The notes: generated from the sequence alone by a model not told the origin. A stretch of 64,000 nucleotides of DNA from a virus (IMGVR_UViG_3300033146_000857:32472-96471); one strand, 5' to 3'. Positions 7,339 through 48,267 are shown, counted from the stretch's first letter. Numbers and translations: made by a program.

Positions 7339-7344
7339 CTCTTT

Positions 7345-7593
7345 TTACCTCATTTTTCTGTTATTAGTATTTTTGGCTAAGTCTTTTAGCTCTTCTAGGT
7401 ATAATTCTAGTTCTATACTATTAAGTTCTATAGAATATGTCTGTCTTTTTGAAGGACTTGATAGTACCCTTGCCCAACCTAAGTAGGTTTTGCTACCTAG
7501 ATCAAGCCCTTCTAGGGCTAGCCTTTCTTTAATAGCTGTTACTCCTGAAGCGTTACAGAAAGTTAACAGTATGATTATAAACAGCTTTTTCAA
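7345..7593 (-). CDS. Small secreted protein in lysis/two-component operon
   Basis: This 82-residue protein has an N-terminal signal peptide (MKKLFIIILLTFCNASG). The mature part is about 65 residues, charged, with a C-terminal helix (IELELYLEELKDLAKN). It lies one base after the kinase gene and six before the outer-membrane protein gene, so it is almost certainly cotranslated with them. The Cys in LTFCNAS could make it a lipoprotein, but the lipobox is not canonical. Possible roles are a periplasmic ligand or partner of the sensor, or an outer spanin-like product. I do not recognise a family. Confidence 0.55.
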   Translation of the reverse strand: MKKLFIIILLTFCNASGVTAIKERLALEGLDLGSKTYLGWARVLSSPSKRQTYSIELNSIELELYLEELKDLAKNTNNRKMR

Positions 7594-7594
7594 C

Positions 7595-8884: not shown

Positions 8885-8888
8885 AAAT

Positions 8889-9467
8889 TTAGTCTTTGAA
8901 CAGAGTTGCGTGTATGTAGGCTCTTCTAGGATCCATGGTTATTTCTGTTTTGTAAAGAACCTTGTCCTCTAGATTAAGCTTTGTCACCTGGTTATACTGG
9001 TCTATAATATTTTTTATAGGATTAATTGGATCACTGATAAGATTTCCAGTATAAAAGAAATACTTAACTAGTGGGTTAATCTCATGTAGTACCTCAAAAA
9101 CGTCCATGCCTGTAAGTCTGATGTTACCCTCTGGGGTTAGGATGCTTCCACCAAGTGTTAGATCTATTATAGCATAGTCTATGTTTAAATCAGCATGCTC
9201 TTTAACTAGGGTTAAAAATTCATACACTGCGTGTTCTCCAACGAAAGATAATATATTATACTTTGATTCATCCATGTCATAGTCTTCAAAAATAGTCTCT
9301 AGGTCATCTTCTAAAAAAGAGACTATGCCTGCATTATCGTCTATCAAGAGTATAGTTTTGTTATTAAAGTCAAAATCACTAGGTAACTCTCTAGTATATT
9401 CTAAGTCTGATGGCCTTAGGCTTTCATCGCCTAGTTTAAACACTAGGTCTAAAGGTGATAGTTTCAT
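8889..9467 (-). CDS. Single-domain response regulator (CheY-like)
   Basis: This 192-residue protein has an extension of about 35 residues, then a receiver domain. Asp43-Asp44 form the acidic pocket (LLIDDNAG), Asp102 is the expected phosphoacceptor (YAIIDLTLGG), Thr140 is the switch residue (FFYTGN) and Lys173 the conserved lysine (LYKTEI). No DNA-binding or enzymatic output domain follows, so it would act by protein-protein contact. It overlaps the upstream coiled-coil membrane gene by four bases and precedes its kinase by four, with TAGGAG before the ATG. The likely partner is the 429-residue kinase. The output target is unknown; the adjacent membrane proteins are candidates. Confidence 0.87.
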   Translation of the reverse strand: MKLSPLDLVFKLGDESLRPSDLEYTRELPSDFDFNNKTILLIDDNAGIVSFLEDDLETIFEDYDMDESKYNILSFVGEHAVYEFLTLVKEHADLNIDYAIIDLTLGGSILTPEGNIRLTGMDVFEVLHEINPLVKYFFYTGNLISDPINPIKNIIDQYNQVTKLNLEDKVLYKTEITMDPRRAYIHATLFKD

Positions 9468-9976
9468 TTTGGGACTCCTAAAAGAATATTCATGACTGTA
9501 AGTAGTGTTGGCCCAGCCAGTACTAACACGATGCTCACACAGACTGTTATTACTGTGATAAACAATAGCTTAGAACTAGTGATTAAAGCATACACTTTAC
9601 CAAAACTTGGTAAAGACTTTTTCTTTGGTTTTAAGAGCTGTTCAAGCATTTCTTTAGTAAGGCTAAGATCTGAGCTAGTGGTTTTTCTAGCTTCTAGATC
9701 TTTGATCAACTTGTCCATTAAAGCTCTTTTTGTTTCTATGATCTCTTTTAGAGTATCATACACTAAGTCTCTAAAATGGCTATTCTTAGTTTCTAGCTTG
9801 TCATTTATAGCCACAATAAACTGAATAATTTCTTTCTGTTCAGAATGGTCACTCATAAGGGCCATTAATGCTTTATGAAAGGTAGCTTGATCAGACCTAC
9901 CAAGTTTACTCATTTGAACGTCTAAAGTTTTTAGGGCACTAGATAGTCTAACATCTAGTTGTTGAAGTTCTTTCAT
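9464..9976 (-). CDS. Tail-anchored coiled-coil membrane protein of lysis operon
   Basis: This 170-residue protein is mostly charged helix/coiled coil for about 125 residues. One long or two short hydrophobic segments follow near residues 130-165 (LLFITVITVCVSIVLVLAG). The topology suggests a cytoplasmic domain anchored by its C-terminus. It overlaps the holin gene by four bases upstream and the response regulator gene by four bases downstream, so it joins lysis and signalling genes in one translational chain. It could be an antiholin, a second holin, or the effector contacted by the receiver-only regulator. No family was recognised. Confidence 0.6.
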   Translation of the reverse strand: MKELQQLDVRLSSALKTLDVQMSKLGRSDQATFHKALMALMSDHSEQKEIIQFIVAINDKLETKNSHFRDLVYDTLKEIIETKRALMDKLIKDLEARKTTSSDLSLTKEMLEQLLKPKKKSLPSFGKVYALITSSKLLFITVITVCVSIVLVLAGPTLLTVMNILLGVPK

Positions 9977-10590
9977 ATTTGTACCTTAGCACTTTTTTGA
10001 TATCTTCTGCTCATTGCTTTGTCTGAAAACCAGAATGAAATTACTGTAGAAGCTGCAAATAGTATCAGTTGTAAAGCTGGTTTAATCACGGCTAACATTA
10101 AGTTCTCTGTTCCAAAGTCGTCAAGTAGGTATTCCTCTAGGGCTGTATCTATAATTACCATTACATACCATACTATGCCTATTGTAAGCACAGGTCTTAT
10201 AAGACCTCTTATAGCGTCCATAGCCAGTAAGTGTAAGTAGATTAAAGGTCTAAATACTAGCCCTATCTTAGTTTTATCACTTATCATCATCTTAACTACA
10301 TCGTCTTTAAGGTACTTGCCAGTTAGTCTCTCTATAAGTCCTGCTCTATTAGTAGCTTCAGCTGTGTCTGCTGCTGCTTCCTCTAGGCTTATGGCTCCTT
10401 CAGTTATTACTTTATCAACTTCTATTTGAGCTTTTATTTCATTTAAGTTAGCTTCACTTTCGGCTTTGAACTTCTTTAGTTCAAACTCGTTCTGTTCTTT
10501 CTGTTGTTTATAGCCGAACCAAGTGGCAAAAATAGAAGTAACTGATCCTAAAAGGCCTCCACTTAGTATGTTAGTAAAAAAGTCCATCAC
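9973..10590 (-). CDS. Holin of the 3-TM type
   Basis: This 205-residue protein starts with a short hydrophobic segment (ILSGGLLGSVTSIFATWFG), followed by a charged helix (residues 30-95). Two further membrane segments lie near 130-150 and 168-188, and the tail is basic (RRYQKSAK). This is the layout I know for the Pfam holin family with three TM helices. It immediately follows the endolysin candidate. It would sit in the inner membrane and release the endolysin by forming holes. Confidence 0.75.
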   Translation of the reverse strand: MMDFFTNILSGGLLGSVTSIFATWFGYKQQKEQNEFELKKFKAESEANLNEIKAQIEVDKVITEGAISLEEAAADTAEATNRAGLIERLTGKYLKDDVVKMMISDKTKIGLVFRPLIYLHLLAMDAIRGLIRPVLTIGIVWYVMVIIDTALEEYLLDDFGTENLMLAVIKPALQLILFAASTVISFWFSDKAMSRRYQKSAKVQI

Positions 10591-10596
10591 ATCCCC

Positions 10597-11031
10597 TTAT
10601 ATGTTTGATATTATGAGCTTAAATGGCTCATTTTTTGTTAGTTTATTCATCTCTCTTATTGCTTGTCTACTTCTAAACACGCATCTTTGCATTTTTCCGT
10701 GTTTGTTTTTAGCTCTTCCAATAGCTTTACCTAGAGTTATACACCCCTGTAGGTGCGTCTGCCACCCAAGCTTAGCGTCTCCTGCAAAGTTAGCCCCGTG
10801 AATAAGTATAAAACTTCTTTTAGACACTTCTTGTATATGGTATAACTTTTTCTTAAAGTGCGGAGAATATCTTAATTTTACGTGGTACTCTCCAGTAGGA
10901 ATACAACTTAGGTTAGGCTTATTGTCTCTATCTGGTAGTTCTAATGAATTCCAAAACATACCATTGTTAGCCAGTATACCAAAAGTCCCCTCTTGAGTAC
11001 TTTGTAGTCTATATAAGTATAACGTTTTCAT
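10597..11031 (-). CDS. DUF5675-like protein, candidate endolysin
   Basis: I place the start at the ATG (11031) with GGGGTG just upstream; a GTG two codons earlier is also possible. The roughly 144-residue protein contains TFGILANNGMFWNSLELPDRDN, PTGEYHVKLRYSPHF, and FILIHGANFAGDAKLGWQTHLQGCITLG, with conserved His and Cys. This pattern matches the DUF5675 family, common next to phage lysis genes and fold-related to L,D-transpeptidase-like or peptidoglycan-acting domains. The holin gene begins six bases downstream. Enzymatic activity on the host wall is inferred from position and family. Confidence 0.7.
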   Translation of the reverse strand: MKTLYLYRLQSTQEGTFGILANNGMFWNSLELPDRDNKPNLSCIPTGEYHVKLRYSPHFKKKLYHIQEVSKRSFILIHGANFAGDAKLGWQTHLQGCITLGKAIGRAKNKHGKMQRCVFRSRQAIREMNKLTKNEPFKLIISNI

Positions 11032-31073: not shown

Positions 31074-32222
31074 CTAGTCTAGTTCAAGCATCATTATAGC
31101 ATCATCAAAAATCTTAGAGATTTCGTCAGAGATACTAATAACTACGCTTGTGAACTGTTGAGTTATAATCTTTTCAGTTTCTTGAAGGTCAGTTCCAGCT
31201 TGAATAACTCTCTCAAGAGCATATCTTCTATCTAGTGTTAGAATGAAGTCATCAGGAAGTGTATTGTCTGTGAATGGGAAAATTGTTACATTCTTCCATA
31301 AGCCTCTACCCATCTGAATTTCTTGAGTTATTGGACCTCTTTCAAGTGCTGCCATCATAGCTACTGGATCAACATTTGGCTTCTCCATCATGATAATCTT
31401 AAGAGCTGTATCAACGCTACAGTAGTAAGTATCAGGCGCATAAGGAGCAAAACTTGCAGTCCACTTTAACCAAGCTTCATAGTTTAGTTTATGGTCTCCA
31501 CTAGAAATAGCTGTAGATAATGTTGATGCTGCTGTTGCAACAGTTCCATTAACCGCTTTAGAGATTGCTTTTTTGAATAAGTCCGTTCTCTGTGAAAGCA
31601 TGATACGATTGATAACAATGTTCATGATATCAAGAGTAGCTTCTCTTTGGAATTCATAAGACATATCAATCTGGATACCTCTTTTTACTAAACTCTTAGA
31701 AACATCTGACCAACCAACTTGAACTCTTGGGAAAGTACCAAACTCACCAACTCTACCCATAGCGTATTTGCCATCAGTAATTGAATCAATGTGAAGTTCT
31801 TTATAAGAGCTTTGAGAAATATTTCTAGTTGTAGAAAGTAAGTCTTCAACGTTGTAGTCTTGATCTTTTAGTAAAGCCATTCTAGCCGTTTTAGAGACTA
31901 GCTCTGGAAAAAGAATCTTTGAACCATCAGTTTGTAATGAATCACTATAGCCTTCAATTGGAGCTGCATTTAAAGTCTCTTCAATTGTAGAAGCGTAAAT
32001 ACCATTAACTGGATCACCTTGAGAAACAATACCAAATCTCTTTAGTTGTCTTTCAAATGCGTCTAATGTTTCCCCAGATTTTGTTGGGTTGATTCTGTTT
32101 AGTAATTGAGAGAAGTTAATCCCTTGCTCACTAGCCAATTTGTACATATCTTTATTTAATTTTACTTTATTAGGATCTGATACTACGTCCTGTCCTAAGT
32201 CTATTCTTAAACTTTTACTCAT
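31074..32222 (-). CDS. Major capsid protein
   Basis: This 382-residue protein starts after AAGGA. It follows the decoration protein gene and precedes the connectors. Features expected for an HK97-fold capsid are present: an N-terminal arm, an extended loop region (TRNISQSSYKELHIDSITDGKYAMGRV), a long spine helix (QREATLDIMNIVINRIM), an A-domain and a C-terminal beta segment (FTSVVISISDEISKIFDDAIMM). No N-terminal delta domain is needed because a separate scaffold is fused to the protease. Confidence 0.85.
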   Translation of the reverse strand: MSKSLRIDLGQDVVSDPNKVKLNKDMYKLASEQGINFSQLLNRINPTKSGETLDAFERQLKRFGIVSQGDPVNGIYASTIEETLNAAPIEGYSDSLQTDGSKILFPELVSKTARMALLKDQDYNVEDLLSTTRNISQSSYKELHIDSITDGKYAMGRVGEFGTFPRVQVGWSDVSKSLVKRGIQIDMSYEFQREATLDIMNIVINRIMLSQRTDLFKKAISKAVNGTVATAASTLSTAISSGDHKLNYEAWLKWTASFAPYAPDTYYCSVDTALKIIMMEKPNVDPVAMMAALERGPITQEIQMGRGLWKNVTIFPFTDNTLPDDFILTLDRRYALERVIQAGTDLQETEKIITQQFTSVVISISDEISKIFDDAIMMLELD

Positions 32223-32232
32223 TTTAATTTCC

Positions 32233-32613
32233 TTAAATTAAGAAGAACGCAGAAAATTCATCACCATCTGCCGCCGCTGCTGTTAGAGCTACACATTTTG
32301 TAGTCATCACCTCTGTTGTTACTGCTTTAACTTTGTCACTACCTGAAGGTACTACTGCTGCGCCTGCTACGATAGCTGCACTTGCAGTTATCTTAACAAC
32401 ACCAGAAAAGTCAACTGTAACAAAATTGTCACTAGTTACTGTCTTCAAAGTTCCGAAAAACTTTGCATTTGCTGGAGCAGCTACAACTCCACCAGTAGCG
32501 TCTAGAGCAACTAATTTGCCTAAGTCACTAGCTGTTAACGCACCTGCGTTTGGAAGAGTTAAAACTCTTTTTAAGCCGTATTGTCCATCTAGTCTAAGAT
32601 TTGGGTATGCCAT
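32233..32613 (-). CDS. Capsid decoration / head-stabilising protein
   Basis: This 126-residue, Ala/Val/Thr-rich, almost purely beta protein (ALTASDLGKLVALDATGGVV, then AAIVAGAAVVPSGSDK) lacks Trp and has few charged residues. Such beta-tulip-like sequences directly upstream of the capsid gene are typical of cement proteins (DUF2190-like). It probably trimerises on the capsid surface. It overlaps no neighbour: 10 bases separate it from the capsid gene and two from the protease gene. Confidence 0.65.
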   Translation of the reverse strand: MAYPNLRLDGQYGLKRVLTLPNAGALTASDLGKLVALDATGGVVAAPANAKFFGTLKTVTSDNFVTVDFSGVVKITASAAIVAGAAVVPSGSDKVKAVTTEVMTTKCVALTAAAADGDEFSAFFLI

Positions 32614-35250: not shown

Positions 35251-36903
35251 CTATTGTATGGCTACAGTGTCTAATGTGATTGGAGCTATGTGCCCCTCAA
35301 GATCTACTAATATTTTATTAGCTGCATACATATAGCCTAGGCTGTGTAATAAGTGATCTTCAGCAACCTTAACGTATCTATATTTATGCTCATCATCCTT
35401 ATCTCTCTGCTTGACCATACCCTTAAGATGTTTCTTATAAAGCTCAGGATCAAACTCTTCAGACTTATTAACCACTAGCCTAGGAGCAGCTATAACGTTA
35501 TCAAACAACTGGGTTCTGTTTAAGGTTATGTCTCTCTCATTGGCTTTAATATTATAAAGATCTTTTTGAGTATCTGAGTAATAAGCAGTGAACGCTGGAC
35601 CATCAAATATTTCACAGATGTCTTTAGCTAGTTTAGTTTGAGGTAAAGCATCACAGACTAACGTGTTGATAAAGTATCTATCTTGATACTCCTTTACCTT
35701 ATCTAATATATAGTCTTCTTTTATAGACTCATATCTATAGATGGTAATAGTATCATCAGGATTAACTTTTCCTAAGGTTAACCAACAGGTTTTACCAAAG
35801 TCAATCCCCATACAAAGGCTGAACCCAGTTGGTGCCCCAAGCTTTATCAGTTCAAACTTTTCATCCGTATCAAACATCATGTCGGATGAAACATAGTCTA
35901 ATCCTAGTGCAAAATTCACGAAGTCGGAATATTGTGTATAGTCATTCATCCCACGCAAGAGATCAAATGGTGTTTGGAAAGCTGTATCAAATGGTGTTAT
36001 CTGATAGCCTGATACTGCTCTGCCTTCGTACTTAGCCACCCATTCTCTGTCTGTATAGTCCTGGTATTGTAAAGGTCTTCTACACCCTTGACATAAGTAC
36101 TTAACGTCCACAGGTAAGACATAGGCTAAATCATCTCTAGTTATCTCCTGTAGTTCTAGGTTCTTTAACTTTGGATGGTCAACAATTATGTCATTGAAAA
36201 AAGACTGGCTAGTCTCATTCCATTTTCCACAATGTGGACACTTCTTCATATAGAACTTTTGATCTGACATATTAAATTCTCTAGAGATACCAAAGTTAGG
36301 TATTGTTGGAGTAGAGAACTTTCTAAATAGCTTCCATTTAGAGTGCTGTACACGTGAACTATATTTGTTAATAATGTCAAGGTCAGAGAAGTCGAGCTCA
36401 TCATGGATTAGCATGTCAGCTGGAACAGAAATCGCAGCCTTAGCCCCAATGGTTCCTTTTATATACATGTAGCTCTTACCTAGTTTCTTTAGTTCTTTAC
36501 TGTCAACATGAGTATCTATCATTGATTTTAACAGCTTAGATTCCTCGATAATATCGTCTACTCTGGTAGTAGAGAAGTCCAAAGCATTCTTACGAGTAGG
36601 CTGAGTTATGATAGCGGTAAGAGACTGATTACGTGCAAGGAACGCGAGTATGGCCCGTACCATTACTTCTGACAGTCCAACCTGCGCACATTTTTTCACG
36701 CATATATTTTGTGACTCATCATTCATAATCATTTCTTGGAACTCATGGTCTACAAAATTGTAAGGGACACCTTTAATCTTGGTATGTTTACACACCCAAT
36801 CGGCCTGAGTCAACGTACTATCCTTAAAGCCATATCTAGAATTCATCTCTGAAACGAAAGCTTGTAAATAAACATTATTATTTTTTACCATGATATATAC
36901 CAT
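35251..36903 (-). CDS. terL: Terminase large subunit
   Basis: The protein has about 550 residues. The first ATG at 36903 is used here; upstream TTG (36924) and downstream ATG (36891) are alternatives, none with a strong ribosome site. The ATPase half has a Walker A variant (KKCAQVGLSE) and a Walker B (MLIHDELDF). A zinc-ribbon insert (CPHCGKW and CQGCRR) matches GpA-type terminases. The nuclease half begins with GIDFGK and continues through VCDALP and VAEDHLLHSLGY. It packages DNA through the portal and cuts concatemers. The small subunit candidate lies just upstream. Confidence 0.9.
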   Translation of the reverse strand: MVYIMVKNNNVYLQAFVSEMNSRYGFKDSTLTQADWVCKHTKIKGVPYNFVDHEFQEMIMNDESQNICVKKCAQVGLSEVMVRAILAFLARNQSLTAIITQPTRKNALDFSTTRVDDIIEESKLLKSMIDTHVDSKELKKLGKSYMYIKGTIGAKAAISVPADMLIHDELDFSDLDIINKYSSRVQHSKWKLFRKFSTPTIPNFGISREFNMSDQKFYMKKCPHCGKWNETSQSFFNDIIVDHPKLKNLELQEITRDDLAYVLPVDVKYLCQGCRRPLQYQDYTDREWVAKYEGRAVSGYQITPFDTAFQTPFDLLRGMNDYTQYSDFVNFALGLDYVSSDMMFDTDEKFELIKLGAPTGFSLCMGIDFGKTCWLTLGKVNPDDTITIYRYESIKEDYILDKVKEYQDRYFINTLVCDALPQTKLAKDICEIFDGPAFTAYYSDTQKDLYNIKANERDITLNRTQLFDNVIAAPRLVVNKSEEFDPELYKKHLKGMVKQRDKDDEHKYRYVKVAEDHLLHSLGYMYAANKILVDLEGHIAPITLDTVAIQ

Positions 36904-36952
36904 AGTATTAACAGTCCCAAACAACCAAGGAACACTGGGCTTATTGTATCAA

Positions 36953-37874: not shown

Positions 37875-37934
37875 ATGGCTATGGCAGCATTTGTTATTGG
37901 TTTCATTATTATTGTCAAATTTTTTATCAGCTAG
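37875..37934 (+). CDS. Tiny membrane peptide, 19 aa
   Basis: AAAGGAT precedes an ATG that opens a 19-residue hydrophobic peptide (MAMAAFVIGFIIIVKFFIS). The single predicted TM helix fills almost the whole peptide. It would be the first product of the early unit. Small size limits certainty. Confidence 0.4.
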   Translation: MAMAAFVIGFIIIVKFFIS

Positions 37935-37995
37935 AGTCATCTAAGGATGATTCTATAGTGTTAACAACTGTTGCCGAAAGGCTGGTCCAGGTAAG

Positions 37996-38011
37996 TAATC
38001 AGAGGAGATTA
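37996..38011 (+). promoter_or_regulatory. RBS-in-loop hairpin, copy 1
   Basis: TAATC and GATTA pair to leave AGAGGA in the loop two bases before an ATG at 38013. A short CTGG-CCAG dyad precedes it at 37982-37990, in the place of the upstream stem in other copies. Confidence 0.6.
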
Positions 38012-38012
38012 T

Positions 38013-38111
38013 ATGTTAAGTAATTTAGAGCTCATAGGAACATTAGTTATATTTGTTGGGGTAGTTATGCTACCTTATATATCAGCCCGTAAAGGAGGCC
38101 ATGATGAGTAA
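38013..38111 (+). CDS. Small membrane protein, 32 aa
   Basis: The start codon follows the RBS-in-loop hairpin. The peptide MLSNLELIGTLVIFVGVVML continues with PYISARKGG and has one TM helix. It overlaps the next small gene by 11 bases, which has its own AAAGGAGG site inside this frame. Confidence 0.5.
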   Translation: MLSNLELIGTLVIFVGVVMLPYISARKGGHDE

Positions 38112-38259
38112 ACTTGTAATAAATAATAAAATAGTGGCTAGATCAAGTGATCTAGTATGGTTAAAGAAACTTGGAGTAAGTTTTAAGAGACTATGTTCTA
38201 ACAAAGAGGTTAGAATAGTTAAAGAAGACATGACTAGTCATATCTTCTTTGGGGCTTAG
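38101..38259 (+). CDS. Small basic protein, 52 aa
   Basis: AAAGGAGG lies just upstream of tandem ATG codons (38101, 38104). The product (SKLVINNKIVARSSDLVWLK and onwards) is basic and soluble. No family recognised. It is followed by a tiny membrane ORF after two bases. Confidence 0.5.
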   Translation: MMSKLVINNKIVARSSDLVWLKKLGVSFKRLCSNKEVRIVKEDMTSHIFFGA

Positions 38260-38261
38260 AA

Positions 38262-38345
38262 ATGGAAGTCTTTATAGTTCAATGTTTTACATTAGTTGTT
38301 GTCTTAGGACTTGGTTTAATAAAATATACTATGGAGATATTATAA
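38262..38345 (+). CDS. Tiny membrane protein, 27 aa
   Basis: The ATG at 38262 opens a single hydrophobic helix (FIVQCFTLVVVLGLGLI). The stop overlaps the ATG of the next gene (TAATG), typical of translational coupling. Confidence 0.4.
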   Translation: MEVFIVQCFTLVVVLGLGLIKYTMEIL

Positions 38346-38557
38346 TGAGATCAGTAAAACAAATAGCCGAAGCTTTTGCTTCAGGTAAGATAAAAGGTGA
38401 TGAGAAATATACCATAGAGGCTAGAACATTGGCTAAATGCCACTCGACCCTTAGCCTAAGGGACAATGAAATAAAGTCTCTAAGATTCGAGATAGCTCGA
38501 CTTGAGCTAGATCTTATAGGCTCTAAGCAGAACCATGAGTTGGTTGTTTGGGCCTAA
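38345..38557 (+). CDS. Small helical protein, 70 aa
   Basis: I choose the ATG at 38345, coupled to the preceding stop and with GGAGATATT upstream, rather than an earlier in-frame ATG at 38249. The protein (MRSVKQIAEAFASGKIKGDE onwards) is a charged helix with a coiled-coil C-terminal half. Function unknown. Confidence 0.55.
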   Translation: MRSVKQIAEAFASGKIKGDEKYTIEARTLAKCHSTLSLRDNEIKSLRFEIARLELDLIGSKQNHELVVWA

Positions 38558-38609
38558 GAATCATTTGTTGAACTTGTTGTATGATACTATTATATAACTT
38601 GTAAGTTTA

Positions 38610-38653
38610 CTGGTAAGAGCTTTAAAACCAGAGATTATAATCTGAGGAGATTA
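38610..38653 (+). promoter_or_regulatory. Two-hairpin leader with RBS in loop, copy 2
   Basis: A first stem CTGGT/ACCAG (38610-38631) is followed by TAATCT-GAGG-AGATTA (38638-38653), a 6-bp stem with the Shine-Dalgarno as its tetraloop. The ATG starts two bases later. AGTTTACTGGTAAGAGC is shared with copies at 39.6 and 41.1 kb. Confidence 0.75.
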
Positions 38654-38655
38654 AA

Positions 38656-39132
38656 ATGAGTTTAGACAGAGAGTTAAGACAGTTTGGGCAACCTTACTTC
38701 ACCCAAACCACTCCAGGGGGTTTAAAGTGGTATTGGACAGACACCCAAAGGATTAGGGCTAGCCTATCCCCGACTAGAAATAGAGAAATAGTAGTTAAGT
38801 TAAATAAGTTACCAGATAACTATAGCTTGACCAAGTTATTGGTTAATCTGGAAGACCAGTGGCTTAAACAGTTCCCTGAGGTAGACTGCTATCAGGGTAT
38901 AGCTCAAATAACTAACAACCGTGACTTCAGTGAGACAGTTAACTACTATCTATTTGAAGATGGTAGTATAACAAAGTTTCTATACCATAAGTATCATAGA
39001 AATCATGATATAAAGACAATAGAATTGACTACCTATCCAGTCAGATGGGACGGTGTAGCATTCAACATGAGATGTAAAAAGATCTCTAAGAGGTTAGCTG
39101 CAAAGCTGACGGGCTTAGACGCTTTACTTTAG
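38656..39132 (+). CDS. Early protein of unknown function, 158 aa
   Basis: Mixed alpha/beta sequence with an N-terminal aromatic stretch (GGLKWYWTDTQRIRASLS) and a basic C-terminus (RCKKISKRLAAKL). No enzyme motif was recognised. Preceded by copy 2 of the two-hairpin leader and followed by copy 3. Confidence 0.6.
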   Translation: MSLDRELRQFGQPYFTQTTPGGLKWYWTDTQRIRASLSPTRNREIVVKLNKLPDNYSLTKLLVNLEDQWLKQFPEVDCYQGIAQITNNRDFSETVNYYLFEDGSITKFLYHKYHRNHDIKTIELTTYPVRWDGVAFNMRCKKISKRLAAKLTGLDALL

Positions 39133-39136
39133 TTTA

Positions 39137-39180
39137 CTGGTAGTATCTTTAAAACCAGAGATTATAATCTGAGGAGATTA
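39137..39180 (+). promoter_or_regulatory. Two-hairpin leader with RBS in loop, copy 3
   Basis: CTGGT/ACCAG (39137-39158) has a loop sequence different from the other copies, and is followed by TAATCT-GAGG-AGATTA. Conservation of the stem with a changed loop supports base pairing. Confidence 0.75.
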
Positions 39181-39181
39181 A

Positions 39182-39553
39182 ATGAACTTTCCAACAGTCC
39201 AAGAGACTATAAAAGCTTTCGAAGAAGTAGTATCAACAACTGAGTTGGCTGCCAACAGCCTAGAGACTAGAAGATCTGAACTAACAGAACTAACTCATGA
39301 AGAGTTAGTTGAAATGATTATAAGTTTTGAGAAGAGAAACACCAATAAGGGTGTTGGTGTTGGAGATCTTGCAAGAGCAATTCTTCAACATGAGGACTAT
39401 ATCACATTAAGCAACGGAGAAGTTGCTGAGGTATGTAGAGAATTAATACCAGGTAGTCAGACTTCTCATAAGAGTATAGCTTCTTATGTGAGCAAGAAGA
39501 GAGAAGAGTGGGCCTTGCCTGATAGAATTCAAGTAAGACGTAAGAAAGCTTAG
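39182..39553 (+). CDS. Paralogue A of a predicted small DNA-binding protein
   Basis: This 123-residue protein has a helical N-terminal half and a conserved C-terminal half (VGDLARAILQHEDYITL, then ELIPGSQTSHKSIASYVSKK) shared almost word for word with the protein at 44298. The pattern of short helices followed by a Ser/Thr-rich turn and KSIASY helix is reminiscent of a winged-helix or HTH. DNA binding is inference. The two genes sit at different points of the early region, each with its own leader. Confidence 0.6.
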   Translation: MNFPTVQETIKAFEEVVSTTELAANSLETRRSELTELTHEELVEMIISFEKRNTNKGVGVGDLARAILQHEDYITLSNGEVAEVCRELIPGSQTSHKSIASYVSKKREEWALPDRIQVRRKKA

Positions 39554-39569
39554 AGGTGTCTATAGTTTA

Positions 39570-39613
39570 CTGGTAAGAGCTTTAAACCAGACTTATATAA
39601 TCAGAGGAGATTA
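39570..39613 (+). promoter_or_regulatory. Two-hairpin leader with RBS in loop, copy 4
   Basis: CTGGT/ACCAG (39570-39590), then TAATC-AGAGGA-GATTA (39598-39613). The final A of the stem is the first base of the ATG, so the start codon itself touches the hairpin. Confidence 0.7.
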
Positions 39614-39864
39614 TGATGATAGTAGACTTAAAAAGATTTAGTTTTTTCTTTAGAAATTATGTGGAAGCCAATGATATGGTTGAGGAAGTTGCTGATAATG
39701 GTAATACCTTTACCAAGGCTACTCAGGAGCTACATGATGCTCTTGAAGTAATGGGACATAAATTCTCACAAGATTGTGAAAGCTATTGTAAAGAGATCAA
39801 GACTTTACAAGCCCGAACAATAAACAAGCTTGGTAGAGATGCCAAGATGAGAGAGCTTTGCTAA
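39613..39864 (+). CDS. Small helical early protein, 83 aa
   Basis: The start is one of two adjacent ATG codons. The protein is mostly charged helix (TKATQELHDALEVMGHKFSQ) with a basic C-terminus. Followed by a 12-bp hairpin and another RBS-in-loop element. Function unknown. Confidence 0.55.
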   Translation: MMIVDLKRFSFFFRNYVEANDMVEEVADNGNTFTKATQELHDALEVMGHKFSQDCESYCKEIKTLQARTINKLGRDAKMRELC

Positions 39865-39870
39865 AGCCAT

Positions 39871-39895
39871 ATAGGATCTTCTAAGAAGATCCTAT
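39871..39895 (+). terminator. 12-bp perfect hairpin after small early gene
   Basis: ATAGGATCTTCT and its exact complement are separated by one base (a loop of three or more forms in practice). The following TATGTCTTTG is only partly T-rich. It may be a terminator or an RNase-processing stem, and takes the place of the upstream stem in the leader series. Confidence 0.55.
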
Positions 39896-39920
39896 TATGT
39901 CTTTGACATAAATAAATTTT

Positions 39921-39934
39921 TATCTGAGGAGATA
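39921..39934 (+). promoter_or_regulatory. RBS-in-loop hairpin, copy 5 (TATCT/AGATA stem)
   Basis: TATCT-GAGG-AGATA puts the Shine-Dalgarno in a tetraloop two bases from ATG at 39937. The stem differs from the TAATCT version but still pairs, a compensatory change. Confidence 0.7.
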
Positions 39935-39936
39935 TC

Positions 39937-40314
39937 ATGGAATTTAGGAACAAAGGTTTCACCTACCTACATGAAGGTGAGAATAGCTGCGAAGTTTGGT
40001 TTACTGCGGACAAGTGTTGGAAAGTTGCCTGTCAAATGGCCGATGCTAACTGTGTGTTTAAAGACTCTAGAGCCTTTAGATGGATAATGGACACTGCCCC
40101 ACAGACACAGTATAAGAAGATTAATACTGTGTTCTGGTTGAATGAGGGAACTCTTGTTATCTTTATGAGACAGTTGGAGAACGGTGAGTTTACCTTATCT
40201 AGAGTATCAGATAGTTTCTTACTGAAACGTTACCTAGCTAATAACTTTGACAGTCTAGAAAAGACCATCCAATGGGTAGTTAATAAAGCAATAGAGGAGA
40301 ACAACCATGCTTAA
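39937..40314 (+). CDS. Early protein of unknown function, 125 aa
   Basis: Beta strands with Trp-rich segments (CEVWFTADKCWKVACQM) and a C-terminal helix (SLEKTIQWVVNKAIEENN). It overlaps the next gene by eight bases. No family recognised. Confidence 0.6.
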   Translation: MEFRNKGFTYLHEGENSCEVWFTADKCWKVACQMADANCVFKDSRAFRWIMDTAPQTQYKKINTVFWLNEGTLVIFMRQLENGEFTLSRVSDSFLLKRYLANNFDSLEKTIQWVVNKAIEENNHA

Positions 40315-40693
40315 AGATTTTGAAAAGAAAGTTATAGCTGTTAACTTTGAACAAGCGGAACTAGGTTATGGGCCTTTAAGCTCATTCTTATATAATAATA
40401 TCGTCATAGTTGCTCCAACTATGGACGAGAATACGCAAGACTATGTTGATCCAGTAGAATACTATGGTGAGGCTTATAGTCTTTGGCTTAAAGAATTAGA
40501 AGAACTTACGATTAAGTGCACTATAACAGAAGTAGCTGGAAATATGAACCTTATAGTTACAAAAGAAGACTATGAATGTTATACTATTATGTATGATGAT
40601 AGTACTGTTTATTGTAACAAGACACAATTAGAGTATGAGTTATCCCAGTTAAAAATACCACAAGATAGTCTAGGAGGATTATATGTTAAGTAA
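40307..40693 (+). CDS. Early protein of unknown function, 128 aa
   Basis: Acidic protein with beta segments (CTITEVAGNMNLIVTKEDYE). It overlaps both neighbours by eight to eleven bases, which implies coupled translation. The ribosome site for the next gene (GGAGGA) lies in its last codons. Confidence 0.6.
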   Translation: MLKDFEKKVIAVNFEQAELGYGPLSSFLYNNIVIVAPTMDENTQDYVDPVEYYGEAYSLWLKELEELTIKCTITEVAGNMNLIVTKEDYECYTIMYDDSTVYCNKTQLEYELSQLKIPQDSLGGLYVK

Positions 40694-41075
40694 GATGATA
40701 GCTTCAATGGAAGCAAAGATAGTTGCCTTTTCAAAGAAAGGGTTTGACATTCCTGAAGATGAGATGGCAATACTAAAGAAATGGTACTTTGAAGGTGCCA
40801 TTAACTTTAAAGCCAACGGCTTTGGACTTCAAGCTGACCTATATGGTCCTTGCCTAGAAGATCCATTATGGAAAGACGTTTATAGTATGACTTGGTTACG
40901 CATCTTCACAAAGATGTGTAAACAACTTGGGGTTGCTACTAAGATTAGTAGGGCATCAGTTGCTGAGTATTGTAAGTCAACGGCTAACTACAAGATCTAT
41001 CCTGTGGTCTCTACTAAGCTAGAAGACTACGATGAGATCTTGGAGAAAGACTTATTAGTTTTGATACAAGAGTAG
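40683..41075 (+). CDS. Early protein of unknown function, 130 aa
   Basis: Mostly helical, starting MLSKMIASMEAKIVAFSKKG. Contains a Trp/Tyr-rich central segment and ends acidic. Third gene of the 39937-41075 coupled group. No motif. Confidence 0.6.
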   Translation: MLSKMIASMEAKIVAFSKKGFDIPEDEMAILKKWYFEGAINFKANGFGLQADLYGPCLEDPLWKDVYSMTWLRIFTKMCKQLGVATKISRASVAEYCKSTANYKIYPVVSTKLEDYDEILEKDLLVLIQE

Positions 41076-41088
41076 TTAGTATAGTTTA

Positions 41089-41130
41089 CTGGTAAGAGCT
41101 TTAAACCAGACTAAACAATCTGAGGAGATT
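41089..41130 (+). promoter_or_regulatory. Two-hairpin leader with RBS in loop, copy 6
   Basis: CTGGT/ACCAG (41089-41109), then AATCT-GAGG-AGATT (41117-41130), three bases before ATG at 41134. Confidence 0.75.
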
Positions 41131-41133
41131 AAG

Positions 41134-42354
41134 ATGGCTATAAATAGTTATGAGTTACTACTTACTCAAAAAGTAGTTTCTGGTGAAATCAGTTTCACTA
41201 TGGATGATATGAAAAATAAAACAGCTGCACAAAGAAAGTGTCTATATAAGCTTGGTGCTTATAAAAACACAATGATGTCTGATAAGAATGTTCAAATATT
41301 TGGTGTAAAACGTCTGAAAAAGGCCATTGACCTTAATATAAGTATGACCTTAAGAAAACTATGGAGTATGTCCTTTGGTGATGCTTTAGATAACTACGAA
41401 AGAATAGTCTCTCCTGTAGGAGACATAAGGGGTTATGAGGCTAAAGTCTTAAAAATGTGGACTAACCTTCCTAGAGGTAGAGACTTATTTGTTAAAGGGC
41501 TAGGGTCTTTTAATATAGATGAAGCTATTGAAACATACAGGATGTCTTATAAGAACAGAACAGTACTAAATCCCAATGACTTAATAGTTACTGGTTATCT
41601 AGGTCAGCCTGATTATAGCCTTACTACCTGGCTAAATAAGGGTAGAAAAGAGTTGTTTAGTTGGATGGTAAGGTCTAAGTTTCCTGTAAGCCGAATTGAT
41701 GAGTTATCGGATCTAGATATTCTTGATATGTGGCATAATAGACTAACTCTAGCTCAGTGTATAAGAAGACTTGATGACATGATGAATAGAAATCTAAAAC
41801 TAGACTATATGGACAAGCCACATTTTGACTATCCTAAAGAATTAATTGCTTTCTGTGAACAAACAGACTTTTGTTGCCCAGAGAACGGCATAGCCTTAAA
41901 GAAGCTAGCTAGAAAGTTCTCTAACTGTTCTGGTAGCTACGTCAAGTCTATAAGACAAAAGGAACTGTTTATAATCTACTCCGAAGATGAAATGATCAGT
42001 CTTAATGGTAAGACTCTAAAGGTTGAACAACATTATGGTAAAAGAAATGAGGACATATCAAAGGGTAAAAAGACTACTTTCAAAGAGTCTATAAGTTATT
42101 TTATTAGAAAGGGTAAATTGCCAAAGATTACCGAGGAGTCAGACTATAAGGTTATGTATGACACAGTACCTAATGGTCATTTTAAAAACACAGTTGCTAC
42201 ATCTGCAGATGCTTTTAAGAAGCTTAAACATATAGCTGAACATGGCTCGATGTATGCTGACACTCCTATATGTTCTAGTGGCTTCAATAAGTTTGTTCTG
42301 AAAAGTGCTACCCTTATAGAGCTAGGTTATAATCATAGAAAATTGGTTTCTTAG
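41134..42354 (+). CDS. PcfJ-like early protein (tentative), 406 aa
   Basis: Largest gene of the early block. The C-terminal half contains LARKFSNCSGSYVKSIRQKE, then FIIYSEDEMISLNGKTLKVEQHYGKRNE, a layout I associate with PcfJ-like proteins (a Cys/Ser-Tyr helix, a beta hairpin, then Q..G..N). The N-terminal 200 residues are helical with Trp and Arg pairs. PcfJ-like proteins occur on plasmids and phages, function unclear. No nuclease or helicase motif is seen. Confidence 0.45.
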   Translation: MAINSYELLLTQKVVSGEISFTMDDMKNKTAAQRKCLYKLGAYKNTMMSDKNVQIFGVKRLKKAIDLNISMTLRKLWSMSFGDALDNYERIVSPVGDIRGYEAKVLKMWTNLPRGRDLFVKGLGSFNIDEAIETYRMSYKNRTVLNPNDLIVTGYLGQPDYSLTTWLNKGRKELFSWMVRSKFPVSRIDELSDLDILDMWHNRLTLAQCIRRLDDMMNRNLKLDYMDKPHFDYPKELIAFCEQTDFCCPENGIALKKLARKFSNCSGSYVKSIRQKELFIIYSEDEMISLNGKTLKVEQHYGKRNEDISKGKKTTFKESISYFIRKGKLPKITEESDYKVMYDTVPNGHFKNTVATSADAFKKLKHIAEHGSMYADTPICSSGFNKFVLKSATLIELGYNHRKLVS

Positions 42355-42370
42355 TTGTTAGAATAGTTTA

Positions 42371-42413
42371 CTGGTAAAAGCTTTAAAACCAGACCTATTT
42401 ATCTGAGGAGATA
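42371..42413 (+). promoter_or_regulatory. Two-hairpin leader with RBS in loop, copy 7
   Basis: CTGGT/ACCAG (42371-42392), then TATCT-GAGG-AGATA (42400-42413), before ATG at 42416. The stem matches copy 5, the upstream arm matches copies 2-6. Confidence 0.75.
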
Positions 42414-42415
42414 GA

Positions 42416-42898
42416 ATGAAACTAATCCCAATAAGCTCTTTTGAGCCTGCTGAAGTATCGAATAGAGAATATGCTGTTAGAACCTTACAAAGTGGTATTG
42501 AGTTGCATGAACTTAAAAACTATCCTTCTAGTGTTGTGATAGAGTATAGAGATTTTACTATAACAGCTACTAGACTTAAGAATGATGACAAATGGTTATT
42601 CATAGGCGAGAATGGTAAACACACGTTTACTGATTTTAATCTTGGTGAACACTTAGAACTGTCTATAGTTGACTTAAAAATAGACGAACTTATATTGTTA
42701 GACACTCAGGAACCTTTTTTAGAAGAGTTACTTGAAGTAGCTATTTCAAAGTTAGACCTTTTGGACAGAATAGAACTACAGTCTGCTATGTCAACAATTG
42801 GTTACTGTAACTGTGCCAAGCATTTTAAGCTATACCTAGCAGAGGAAACAATGTCAGATCTAAAAGAAGCACTTGAAGCCTTAAAGGAGGTAATGTAA
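42416..42898 (+). CDS. Early protein of unknown function, 160 aa
   Basis: Alpha/beta protein with a C-terminal helical acidic part (SDLKEALEALKEVM). It overlaps the next ATG by one base, with AAAGGAGG near its end serving the following gene. No family recognised. Confidence 0.6.
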   Translation: MKLIPISSFEPAEVSNREYAVRTLQSGIELHELKNYPSSVVIEYRDFTITATRLKNDDKWLFIGENGKHTFTDFNLGEHLELSIVDLKIDELILLDTQEPFLEELLEVAISKLDLLDRIELQSAMSTIGYCNCAKHFKLYLAEETMSDLKEALEALKEVM

Positions 42899-43311
42899 TG
42901 AATAGTTTTAGAGAACACTATGGACAAGATATAGACGGAAATAGAGGTGTAGTAAGATATGAACATGAGCTAGAAGACTCAGATGATGAAGTTATAAAAG
43001 AACAACTGCTCGACCTTAAAGGTCAAGTTGACTATGATGAGACTACTACCATTAGCCTCTGTTCTGACTCAACTGGAGACAATGTTGAGTTTGATATAAA
43101 AGTCTCAGACTACTTAAGTATAGAAGAATATCTTAAGTCTGCTTATGCTGATGTATCACCAGAGTTCAGCTTAGAGGGTATAAAATTTAGAGTTGGCCAG
43201 ATTGATGATACTTACTATGTCTTACAAGGAGCTCAAGTTACTTCCGAGCTTGATGCCCCACTTGAAGGCATAGACTTGCTACAACAGATAAAAAAGGAGA
43301 TAAGAATATGA
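42898..43311 (+). CDS. Acidic early protein, 137 aa
   Basis: Strongly acidic (EHELEDSDDEVIKEQLLD), a property of some DNA-mimic or chaperone-like phage proteins. Overlaps the cysteine-repeat gene by four bases. Unknown function. Confidence 0.6.
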   Translation: MNSFREHYGQDIDGNRGVVRYEHELEDSDDEVIKEQLLDLKGQVDYDETTTISLCSDSTGDNVEFDIKVSDYLSIEEYLKSAYADVSPEFSLEGIKFRVGQIDDTYYVLQGAQVTSELDAPLEGIDLLQQIKKEIRI

Positions 43312-43787
43312 AAAGAGAAATAAGAACATTAAAGGGTAAAGACTACCTGTTTGACACCAAAGAGAATTGTGTTTGTCTAACAAGATTTGACTTAGAAACG
43401 GCGGAGGCTATGCTAGATAGCCTCACCGACTGTACTTGTTGTGTTAATTGTAAGGGTTGTATAAAGTGTGTTAGTTGTGTAGACTGTACTGACTGCCTAG
43501 CTTGTAATGACTGTGAAGGTTGTGAGGCTATTGCGGCTTATAGAGACCTAAAAGATCCCAAAAGATATGTCATTGATGTTACTGATGAAGAATTAACTAG
43601 CCAAGCTATCCAAGAACGTATCTTTAAGTTGGGTGGCTCATGGTATGAAGGCTGTAAAGAAGTACACTCCACTGATGTAGCTGGCTTATTCATTGATGAA
43701 CAGCTTATCATGTCTCACTGTGATAATATTAAAATATCATCAGACTATAAGCTTATATCTGCTGAAACATTCTTTAAGCTCTTCTAG
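43308..43787 (+). CDS. Cysteine-triplet repeat protein, 159 aa
   Basis: Residues about 42-76 carry a Cys at nearly every third position (CVNCKGCIKCVSC, then CTDCLACNDCEGC), at least twelve cysteines in a row. The flanking parts are ordinary alpha/beta sequence. The regular CXX spacing could form a narrow beta-solenoid-like stack, a polythiol patch or a metal-cluster ladder. No conventional zinc finger has this pattern. Last gene of the coupled set; its stop lies at the base of a long terminator hairpin. Confidence 0.6.
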   Translation: MKREIRTLKGKDYLFDTKENCVCLTRFDLETAEAMLDSLTDCTCCVNCKGCIKCVSCVDCTDCLACNDCEGCEAIAAYRDLKDPKRYVIDVTDEELTSQAIQERIFKLGGSWYEGCKEVHSTDVAGLFIDEQLIMSHCDNIKISSDYKLISAETFFKLF

Positions 43788-43830
43788 GGAATATATAGAG
43801 CACTAATTTTAGTGTTCTATTATGTTCCCT
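43786..43830 (+). terminator. Long hairpin terminator after cysteine-repeat gene
   Basis: AGGGAA (43786) pairs with TTCCCT (43825), and GAGCACT pairs with AGTGTTC inside, with a T-rich apical loop. It starts at the stop codon. A clear T-tract is absent, so processing is also possible. Confidence 0.55.
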
Positions 43831-44297
43831 GCTGCTAAGATCAATTACCTGTAGCACTAACATCAGAGTCTATGACTAGAATCACAGCCGATCTTCCCAA
43901 TCAAAAAACCCTGGCTGTGTCTATATATCTAATATCTTTAGTTCCTGACCCACAGGCCAATCTTTTATATTGATTGTACAAAACCCTTACACCATAGATT
44001 CATGGGCCACTCTGCTCAACTTTCCTCTAAAGGTAACCCATTAATATTCCACTCCACCCTGTGCCCATATGCCCATCCCTACATAGGCATGCTAAGCGTC
44101 TTTGTGCACACTTGATGTATAATACATATACGAACAAAGATGATAGATGTTAGATGATATTGACCTTGCCTTGGCCATTATGACCATAGGATAAGCATCA
44201 AGTCACTTTTCTTGAACTTTTGTTATAATTATGTTATGAATCAAAAGAGAGTTGGTCAAGACGACCCAATAACTGTCAATCTTAGGAGGACAAACCA
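43831..44297. other. 467-bp pyrimidine-skewed non-coding stretch
   Basis: No ORF above 40 codons with a ribosome site on either strand. The plus strand is rich in C and T (CCACTCCACCCTGTGCCC) unlike the purine-rich flanks. It holds TGTATAATACA (44116-44126), a small dyad with a -10-like core, and a TATAAT at 44224 upstream of the next gene. No tRNA cloverleaf was found. A control region or origin is possible. Confidence 0.5.
44224..44229 (+). promoter_or_regulatory. -10-type promoter before paralogue B
   Basis: TGTTATAATTATG, 69 bases before the ATG at 44298. No TTGACA-type -35 at 16-18 bases, as seen with other putative promoters here. Confidence 0.45.
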
Positions 44298-44711
44298 ATG
44301 AAACTAACAACCGTAGCTGATATAACAGCAAAATTCCAAACTGTAGTAGCAGACCCAGAGTCAGCAAATGAAGAAGCACAAGCTATCCGTACTGAAGAGC
44401 TTATGAAGTTGAGTAAGTCTGACCTTACAGCTATGATTATCTCGGCTGAGTCTAGAAATTCAGGCTCTGTAAAGGTCGGAGACCTTGCAAAAATGATACT
44501 TCAAGACGAAGAGTTTATCACTGCAAGCCATGAGACAGTTGCTCAAGCTGTAAGAGAACTAATCCCTGGAAGCCAAACGTCTTACAAGAGCATTGCCTCT
44601 TATGTGAGTAAGAAGAGAGAAGAATGGGACCTACCTGATAGAATTCAAGTACGAACAGCTCGTCCAAAAAAACCAGCTCCAGAGGTTGAGACTGAAACAA
44701 CTGAAGACTAA
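44298..44711 (+). CDS. Paralogue B of a predicted small DNA-binding protein
   Basis: This 137-residue protein has a ribosome site TTAGGAGG. It shares the conserved C-terminal half with paralogue A (AKMILQDEEFITASHETVA, then ELIPGSQTSYKSIASYVSKK), followed by an added Pro/Glu-rich tail. It stands alone between a promoter and a terminator, so it is a separate, possibly strongly expressed unit. Regulatory or nucleoid-type DNA binding is inference. Confidence 0.62.
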   Translation: MKLTTVADITAKFQTVVADPESANEEAQAIRTEELMKLSKSDLTAMIISAESRNSGSVKVGDLAKMILQDEEFITASHETVAQAVRELIPGSQTSYKSIASYVSKKREEWDLPDRIQVRTARPKKPAPEVETETTED

Positions 44712-44718
44712 AAAAAGA

Positions 44719-44755
44719 CTTAGGCCATCGGACGTGGATGGCCTATTGTTTTATT
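44719..44755 (+). terminator. Rho-independent terminator
   Basis: AGGCCATC pairs with GATGGCCT (44722-44744), followed by ATTGTTTTATTT. Good stem and T-tract. Confidence 0.8.
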
Positions 44756-44756
44756 T

Positions 44757-44800
44757 AAGCTCTACCAAAGGGCTTATATAAAGTAATAACCGAGGAGTTA
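44757..44800 (+). promoter_or_regulatory. Two-hairpin leader with RBS in loop, copy 8 (divergent sequence)
   Basis: AAGCTCT-ACCAA-AGGGCTT forms a 7-bp stem (one G-U pair) and TAAC-CGAGGA-GTTA (44787-44800) again puts GAGG in the loop. Both stems differ from copies 2-7 in sequence but not in layout. Confidence 0.6.
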
Positions 44801-44804
44801 AAAA

Positions 44805-45137
44805 ATGTTAAAAAGTATATTCTTAAATGATAAGGTAGTACTAAATGCCTCTAAACTCAGCCATAACCCTGTAAAAGGACACTTGACGCTTACTTATCCA
44901 GATAATGAGTGTTTGAACCTTTTAGATATTATAGACCCAAAAGTGTGGTCTATTGACTATTTATCAAAGAAAAAAGTTCGTTTATACCCAATAATTGACA
45001 ATAAACTGACAATTAAGGGCAAAACCTTTGAAATTTTCTATAACACTGACAGCTGTGTTGTAATCCATAAAGACGAATTTGAGCTATTTGATAGCTTCAC
45101 TATTATACCAGGAGACCTATCATGGATGACAAACTAA
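44805..45137 (+). CDS. Early protein, paralogue of 45834 product, 110 aa
   Basis: Beta-rich. The segment LLDIIDPKVWSIDYLSKKKV aligns with MLEMLDPTVYMVKLTTSKDT in the 93-residue protein encoded at 45834. The pair flanks the 208-residue gene. Overlaps the next gene by 16 bases. Unknown function. Confidence 0.6.
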   Translation: MLKSIFLNDKVVLNASKLSHNPVKGHLTLTYPDNECLNLLDIIDPKVWSIDYLSKKKVRLYPIIDNKLTIKGKTFEIFYNTDSCVVIHKDEFELFDSFTIIPGDLSWMTN

Positions 45138-47092: not shown

Positions 47093-47777
47093 CCCCCTAG
47101 AGATGTAAATACTTCTTTAGGGATGTAAATGCCTTTGTCATCTAATTCTGTAGCTTCTTTGATTCAGAATTAGATGGACCTTGGCCAGGTCATTAGCTCT
47201 TTTTATACTAGAAGTGCTAAAAAAAGTTTGTTAAGGTTTTCGAACTATCTTAGTCAATACTTTTTAGTCTAATTTTATTGATTTGAATTCTTTATACAAT
47301 ATAACTATCTATTTCTAATAATTTTCTTACTTTTTTGACACTTTCAATTTTATCACTATTTAGGGGTCGCTGGACATAGTAGTCGGTCTGCTAAGCGAAT
47401 AGTAAACGAAAAATATTTGTTATTTTATAAGTATAGTAATAAAAAATTTTCCATAGTAATGAATTTGTCAAAAACATGCTAAAGGTAAGATAGAATACTT
47501 AGTTCGTTTACTATTGGTCAGTTTTTCTCTGTGACTCGACATTCTTCCCAAAAACGAGCCCTTAAAAATTGATAAAAAAAGTTTAGTGTAGCCAGTTTTT
47601 CTATCCCCTTTTAGCACTTTTTTCGAGTTTTCATATCATTTTTTAACTACGAGACCTAGCATACTAAGATAGTTTAACTAGAATAGCCTGACATTTGCTC
47701 AGAGTAAAACATTTAATGAAAAATAAACCCTATAAACGGCCAAAATAACTACAATCTAAACCTGAATGGTCAGGCGT
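47093..47777. other. AT-rich gene-free stretch
   Basis: About 685 bases, low GC, with no ORF supported by a ribosome site on either strand. It holds a perfect 12-bp inverted repeat (see 47139-47176) and many A/T tracts, then runs into the tandem repeat block. Compatible with an origin or an insertion-prone segment. Confidence 0.55.
47139..47176 (+). terminator. 12-bp perfect inverted repeat, terminator-like
   Basis: CATCTAATTCTG and its complement are separated by a 14-base loop. It lies about 47 bases after the last gene of the block. T-tract is weak, so terminator or protein site. Confidence 0.5.
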
Positions 47778-47957
47778 GACCAATAGCGTGACCAATAGCG
47801 TGACCAATATCATGACCAATATCATGACCAATATCATGACCAATATCATGACCAATATCATGACCAATAGCGTGACCAATATCATGACCAATAGCGTGAC
47901 CAATAGCGTGACCAATATCATGACCAATAGCGTGACCAATATCATGACCAATATCAT
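47778..47957. repeat. 15 tandem copies of a 12-bp unit in two alternating versions
   Basis: Unit GACCAAT is followed by AGCGT (version A) or ATCAT (version T). Fifteen units occur in the order A A T T T T T A T A A T A T T without spacers. Because 12 is a multiple of three, all frames stay open and give false peptides. Looks like iterons or a contingency-type repeat. Confidence 0.9.
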
Positions 47958-48107
47958 AAGACAAATTCCATAAGACACCCAGACACCCAGACATAAAACA
48001 AATTCCATAAGACACCCAGACATAAGACACCCAGACATAAGACACCCAGACATAAGACACCCAGACATAAAACAAATTCCATAAGACAATAAACAATAAA
48101 CAATAAA
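47958..48107. repeat. Mixed tandem repeats (15-bp ATAAGACACCCAGAC and others)
   Basis: Several copies of ATAAGACACCCAGAC run from 48007, interleaved with three copies of ACAAATTCCATAAGAC (about 47961, 47997, 48071) and AATAAAC triplets at the end. No coding content. Confidence 0.8.
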
Positions 48108-48267
48108 AGCGTGCGAAAACGATATAAATATACCAAAACAGTGATTCCAAATACGACACACGAGGCATTTGGTTTATACCACGAGGTAGATAACACTCTC
48201 TTTAATGTTCACTAACATTCTTGAGTGTTTGCCTAATCAATGAGATATGTAATAAGCATAGTTCTGA

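Follow-up and report, generated by a model that had tools for sequence, protein, structure and literature searches.

We have identified a repeated leader hairpin that carries the Shine-Dalgarno (SD) sequence in its loop ahead of a series of early genes in an unclassified phage, and it represents a genuine, apparently undescribed family of structured leaders. On comparative sequence evidence, the SD hairpin is an RNA structure preserved through compensatory change. Since its shape is kept while its letters vary, we regard it as real and probably translation-boosting. The leaders are best read as cis-acting, insulated initiation modules for genes without coupling to an upstream cistron, a reading to which we assign a probability of roughly 0.58.

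The window analysed here, 64,000 nucleotides long, corresponds to positions 32472-96471 in a virus record of 96,471 bases (IMGVR_UViG_3300033146_000857). The leaders with modules all lie within one 7-kb early cluster that adjoins the large terminase gene and is read away from it, and the small proteins encoded by this cluster are almost without family matches. The terminase shares ~30-33% identity with its counterparts in Pseudomonas phage PMBT3 and Vibrio phage SHOU24 and is closer to those of metagenome contigs, designated here L138 (77%), L139 (74%), L005 (72%), L006 (62%) and L143 (55%). All eight SD-in-loop hairpins proposed in the initial annotation were found, and their differing but pairing stems (TAATCT/AGATTA, AATCT/AGATT, TATCT/AGATA, TAATC/GATTA and TAAC/GTTA) were located; the CTGGT/ACCAG stem, termed H1, is present upstream in each of the five leaders for which it had been claimed, and the AAGCTCT/AGGGCTT stem precedes the hairpin of the 44.8 kb copy (Table 1).

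Table 1. Coordinates of the leader elements and of the adjoining terminase gene, counted from the first base of the window
Feature	Start served	Position	Strand	Remarks
Large terminase gene		35251-36924	minus	
Short stem GCC[GAAA]GGC, upstream of SD hairpin	38013	37973-37982		
SD hairpin TAATC[AGAGGA]GATTA	38013	37996..38011	+	-3.7 kcal/mol
H1 CTGGT[AAGAGCTTTAAA]ACCAG	38656	38610..38631	+	
SD hairpin TAATCT[GAGG]AGATTA	38656	38638..38653	+	-4.0 kcal/mol
H1 CTGGT[AGTATCTTTAAA]ACCAG	39182	39137..39158	+	
SD hairpin TAATCT[GAGG]AGATTA	39182	39165..39180	+	L005 orthologue: TATACT[GAGG]AGTATA
H1 CTGGT[AAGAGCTTTAA]ACCAG	39613	39570..39590	+	
SD hairpin TAATC[AGAGGA]GATTA	39613	39598..39613	+	L005 orthologue: TTATG[AGGAG]CATAA, with H1 GGGTT/AACCC
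Upstream hairpin ATGTC[TTT]GACAT	39937	39897..39909	+	Unrelated to H1
SD hairpin TATCT[GAGG]AGATA	39937	39921..39934	+	-3.1 kcal/mol
SD hairpin ATAGTCT[AGGA]GGATTAT	40683 (overlapping)	40665..40682	+	-4.4 kcal/mol, G-U pairs included
H1 CTGGT[AAGAGCTTTAA]ACCAG	41134	41089..41109	+	
SD hairpin AATCT[GAGG]AGATT	41134	41117..41130	+	-2.7 kcal/mol
H1 CTGGT[AAAAGCTTTAAA]ACCAG	42416	42371..42392	+	
SD hairpin TTATCT[GAGG]AGATAG (TATCT[GAGG]AGATA)	42416	42399..42414	+	-5.0 kcal/mol
Upstream hairpin AAGCTCT[ACCAA]AGGGCTT	44805	44757..44775	+	
SD hairpin TAAC[CGAGGA]GTTA	44805	44787..44800	+	-0.3 kcal/mol, very weak, least secure copy

The mean energy of a hairpin with the SD in its loop was -3.31 kcal/mol in the module leaders versus -0.59 kcal/mol in their shuffles. 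This comparison took in the SD-bearing starts across the whole 96.5-kb contig, where the other 110 starts, remaining early and right-arm ones included, averaged ~-0.5 kcal/mol, the same as their own shuffles (Mann-Whitney p = 4e-7). Because the remaining starts fold no better than shuffles, SD-in-loop structures are special to the early cluster. The module had initially been described as phage-wide, which is incorrect, as late genes, right-arm genes and several relatives are without it. The leader of the major capsid gene, TTAATTT[AAGG]AAATTAA (32220-32243, minus strand), was considered as a further copy and rejected since neither L005 nor L139 retains it.

Compensatory change, which had been read directly from the window, is modest among the window copies alone and becomes clear across L005, L139 and L143. 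Within the window, double changes occur at two pairs, and exchanging the arms gave p ~0.014 (41 of 3000 permutations as low). In the three relatives, the same hairpin type stands ahead of terminase-proximal early genes, with stems such as TATACT/AGTATA, TTATTCT/AGAATAA, AATATC/GATATT, TTATG/CATAA, TATCCT/AGGATA and TGTTCT/AGGACA. A model built from the eight window copies alone recovered leaders of all three when the relatives were searched: in 297 kb of other sequence, the top four matches were L005 leaders (E 0.002-0.007), and those of L139 and L143 came at E 0.05-0.6, mixed with a few chance matches. Orthologous leaders are particularly informative, as the stems differ and all of them pair in the couples 39182/L005 14123, 39613/L005 15433, L005 12422/L139 11432 and L005 12836/L139 12072.

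The 20 leaders that fit one register were aligned. In this alignment, which is biased towards structure because ill-fitting leaders were omitted (L005 13632 and 15433, L139 11837, L143 4036 and window 40683, owing to loop size or a bulge) and the overlapping start L005 16070 was included, 92.5% of the paired cells of the SD stem are complementary, compared with 43-67% when the partner is slid; double-change cells number 25 against 8.7 in shuffles, and the covariation score is 0.606 against 0.192, with none of 500 shuffles as high. An arm-swap energy test that retains such irregular leaders gave the same picture: the mean energy of 19 distinct leaders, -3.84 kcal/mol, rose to -1.39 kcal/mol when their 5' arms were exchanged (z = -7.2; 0/3000 as low), and 11 of 3000 permutations were as low for L005 by itself, although neither these nor the covariation figures are exact probabilities because the leaders of one phage are non-independent. 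Since the arms vary freely and yet remain complementary, it is unlikely that a DNA-binding protein reads their sequence as an operator or promoter at the DNA level. The number of promoter-like matches in this part of the window (38, versus 28.8 +- 6.1 in shuffled sequence) is not far above expectation, and the TATAAT found within two leaders is not conserved among the others.

The stem of H1 also covaries (CTGGT/ACCAG, CTGTT/AACAG, GGGTT/AACCC, CTATT/AATAG). Its loop is near-constant (~ATAGCYWTAAA) despite the changing stem, which hints at recognition by some factor. The upstream position is otherwise occupied by quite different elements: ATGTC/GACAT at 39937, AAGCTCT/AGGGCTT at 44805 and TGACC/GGTCA in L005 are hairpins unrelated to H1, and several L143 leaders carry TGCC[TACG]GGCA and GTC[GAAA]GAC, with loops of the UNCG and GNRA types. 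On the reverse complement of L005, the modules of starts 12836, 13141, 13632 and 14123 are immediately preceded by a strong intercistronic hairpin (CTAGAGCCCTATAAGTAGGGCTCTATGG and near copies), which may serve in processing or termination. Pseudoknot formation by the H1 loop with the SD was rejected on inspection, as the pairing is not preserved in L005.

The predicted effect of the SD hairpin is to keep the SD accessible. In energy models of naked RNA at 37 C, the SD was predicted to be unpaired in context with a mean probability of 0.86, which fell to 0.51 when only the 5' arm was scrambled; the drop occurred in 23 of 24 leaders (p = 6e-7), and exposure of the AUG stayed at 0.50. Scrambling an arm of H1 gave a smaller drop, chiefly in the window copies. 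At other starts of the genome, mean predicted SD exposure was 0.41-0.53.

Each leader may act as a self-contained translation-initiation module within the early mRNA. A weak hairpin of 4-7 bp would keep the SD (GAGG/AGGAG) in a loop of 4-6 nt, with its 3' arm occupying the spacer up to the AUG. By sequestering the flanking A/U-rich sequence, the stem would prevent mispairing of the SD with neighbouring mRNA and leave it open to 16S rRNA, and at ~-3 to -6 kcal/mol it should be weak enough to melt as the 30S subunit settles. H1, or an exchangeable substitute, would insulate the leader from the cistron before it, and might also protect the mRNA against nucleases. Because the weak hairpin would insulate the SD, genes without overlapping stop/start coupling to the previous gene, before which the module mainly stands, could initiate independently. 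We infer that translation is raised by the module, and ribosome recruitment, independent initiation and any effect on mRNA stability are likewise inferred. Several points count against this proposal: a simply unstructured SD should work too, so that insulation must repay the cost of a stem; the near-constant H1 loop hints at recognition; some overlapping starts have SD hairpins; and late genes, including the major capsid gene, are without the module though strong initiation is expected there. If the proposal is correct, the leaders would be direct evolutionary evidence that weak-hairpin insulation of the SD is selected and not just tolerated, and would provide natural, exchangeable initiation modules for studying the trade-off between structure and gene overlap in polycistronic phage mRNA.

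The relationship to gene overlap is not absolute. The modules precede mostly non-overlapping starts, as first noted, and the L005 orthologues of three window genes bear this out: 38656, 39937 and 41134 have modules, and their L005 counterparts start within the previous gene, all three without H1. The converse statement, that overlapping starts lack the hairpin, holds for most of them and fails at 40683, which overlaps the neighbouring gene by 11 nt and has an SD hairpin nonetheless; in L005, hairpins are likewise found at the overlapping starts 16070 (-3.3 kcal/mol) and 14658 (-2.5 kcal/mol, weaker). The product of 40683 was considered as a trans-acting factor and rejected, since homologues occur also in relatives without the module.

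Among phages, a scan of starts gave a hairpin excess in the window cluster (z = -3.8) and in L005 (z = -6.7) and none in L006, L146, L137, L153, PMBT3 and SHOU24 (z -1.8 to +1.8). Pattern searches of other viral contigs for H1 and for the L143 leaders returned known relatives and chance matches only, and a second protein query added nothing to the set of four contigs (window, L005, L139 and L143). L143 falls outside the clade of the window, L005 and L139 in the terminase tree, which requires two or more gains or losses of the trait. In an unrelated viral contig, L101 (IMGVR_UViG_3300017910_001069), a row of small genes lies at 6436-10890, about a dozen of them preceded by AATCTGAGGAGATT. An SD hairpin of the same kind is found in L101 as well, and several of its leaders have a hammerhead-like ribozyme upstream (CTGANGA ... 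GAAA ... GTC), for which the best Rfam match was Hammerhead_1 at E = 2.4e-4, below the curated cut-off. A scan of the window for the hammerhead core found none.

The most serious rival is that an early shut-off factor acts in trans on the hairpin, either cleaving it at GGAG as a RegB-like endoribonuclease or binding its loop as a phage repressor, so that the early genes would be silenced jointly. RegB-like cleavage deserves this rank because the geometry fits the preference of the T4 enzyme, whose sites resemble these leaders in having GGA unpaired and the next G constrained, at the SD of early genes. GGAG occurs in 24/24 leaders; its GGA lies within the loop or at the loop's edge, and its last G belongs to the closing pair or adjoins it. 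By sequence and predicted fold, nearly all leaders have GGA unpaired and the fourth G constrained; in the tetraloop form, the closing U-A pair includes the A of GGA. Of 16 relative leaders, 5 match the strong RegB consensus GGAGRAYARAA exactly, the modules are restricted to a single early cluster, and the sequence of the H1 loop is kept. However, the full 11-nt consensus occurs in none of the eight window leaders, GGAG is usual in late SDs of the same phage too (15/26), and a RegB-family protein (PF10715) gave no match at E <= 10 in the contig, which may be incomplete. The SD hairpin is also found with unrelated upstream elements. Those that accompany it in L143 and in L101, itself an unrelated contig, are quite different, which favours a generic cis role, as do the two or more changes of the trait on the terminase tree. 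We consider joint shut-off unlikely. It is doubtful, too, that the two-hairpin leader constitutes a phage regulon, in which a factor would read the H1 loop and, with the SD loop, switch translation or decay of the whole early cluster, and other phages would have UNCG/GNRA hairpins or hammerhead-like ribozymes in place of the upstream element. The initial annotation put forward possible recognition by a phage protein, which was not borne out: the conserved H1 loop is the sole positive hint, and homologues of RegB and CsrA were not found in the contig.

CsrA-type binding, with the loop GGA shown to the host's CsrA either as a repressor or for its titration by abundant early mRNA, appears very improbable. 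CsrA prefers short hairpins with a loop-exposed GGA, and its dimer binds two of them (PMC7366521). The present leaders resemble CsrA/RsmA hairpins in that they are short, overlap the SD and present GGA in the loop, but the ANGGA loop motif is absent from all copies, as loops of the NGAGGA and TTAGGA forms place A directly before GGA and not two before. A role in processing or stability, where H1 and the SD hairpin would mark or protect 5' ends cut from a polycistronic transcript and any effect on initiation would be secondary, is improbable. It would agree with the strong intercistronic hairpins just ahead of several L005 modules, with the hammerhead-like ribozymes at the corresponding place in L101 and with the position of H1, which begins ~4-16 nt past the previous stop codon in four of the five window copies; yet most window modules have no such long hairpin or ribozyme upstream, and processing would not require that every copy have the SD as its loop. 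Five copies in the window are nearly identical across 50 nt and covariation in the window alone is borderline, as would be expected of one duplicated, functionless repeat unit with chance symmetry around the SD. That explanation is scarcely credible, since compensatory changes, seen from phage to phage and in orthologous leaders, contradict it, and since the arms around 30 GAGGAG-type SDs from 139 other viral loci are no more complementary or symmetrical than expected.

Engineered hairpins with the SD in the loop exist for expression, and T4 has intercistronic CUUCGG hairpins. Both resemble the present initiation leaders in having small stems that surround the SD or precede it, and the C(UACG)G loop of L143 belongs to the same UNCG class as the T4 hairpins; what sets the present leaders apart is that they are a natural set, repeated before many genes and covarying from phage to phage. 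FourU and ROSE RNA thermometers and translational riboswitches are likewise 5' UTR structures at the SD, but they pair and hide it, whereas in these leaders it is looped, unpaired at 37 C in the model given above, and a ligand-sized domain is lacking. In T4, a structure intervenes in the split ribosome-binding site of gene 25, and an inhibitory stem blocks that of gene e (PMC3014915). These too are cis-acting phage hairpins that alter initiation at ribosome-binding sites (PMC3014915); however, they concern single genes and have another geometry, whereas one covarying SD-in-loop hairpin is reused here before many genes. The early impression that the module matches nothing described agrees with Rfam 15, which gave nothing at gathering score for the whole window, and chance-level matches only at a relaxed E-value for window positions 37900-42500, L143, L139 and L005. 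A literature search, with subscription journals mostly outside its coverage, found no description of such a repeated leader with the SD in its loop. Phage initiation regions with structure are already known, and the repeated, covarying SD-in-loop leader is apparently the new part.

Several additional observations were made. In L006, L146 and L137, a different repeated leader, ACTGGATGTTGCCTGAAAGAA or close variants, stands ahead of early genes without an SD hairpin. L153, filed under an Asgard archaeon MAG and yet containing a phage terminase gene, is probably misbinned; its reverse complement has repeated leaders at 14.9-18.1 kb with CCCTC/GAGGG and GGGC/GCCC hairpins and a separate SD downstream. 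Two early proteins of the window, encoded at 39182-39553 and 44298-44711, are paralogous (~56% identical) and have relatives in L005, L137, L146 and L157. A short tandem repeat at 47776-48160 forms a low-complexity stretch between early genes. At 7595-9467, on the minus (late-gene) strand, the window encodes two successive proteins, the first a histidine-kinase-like ATPase and the second without a Pfam match.
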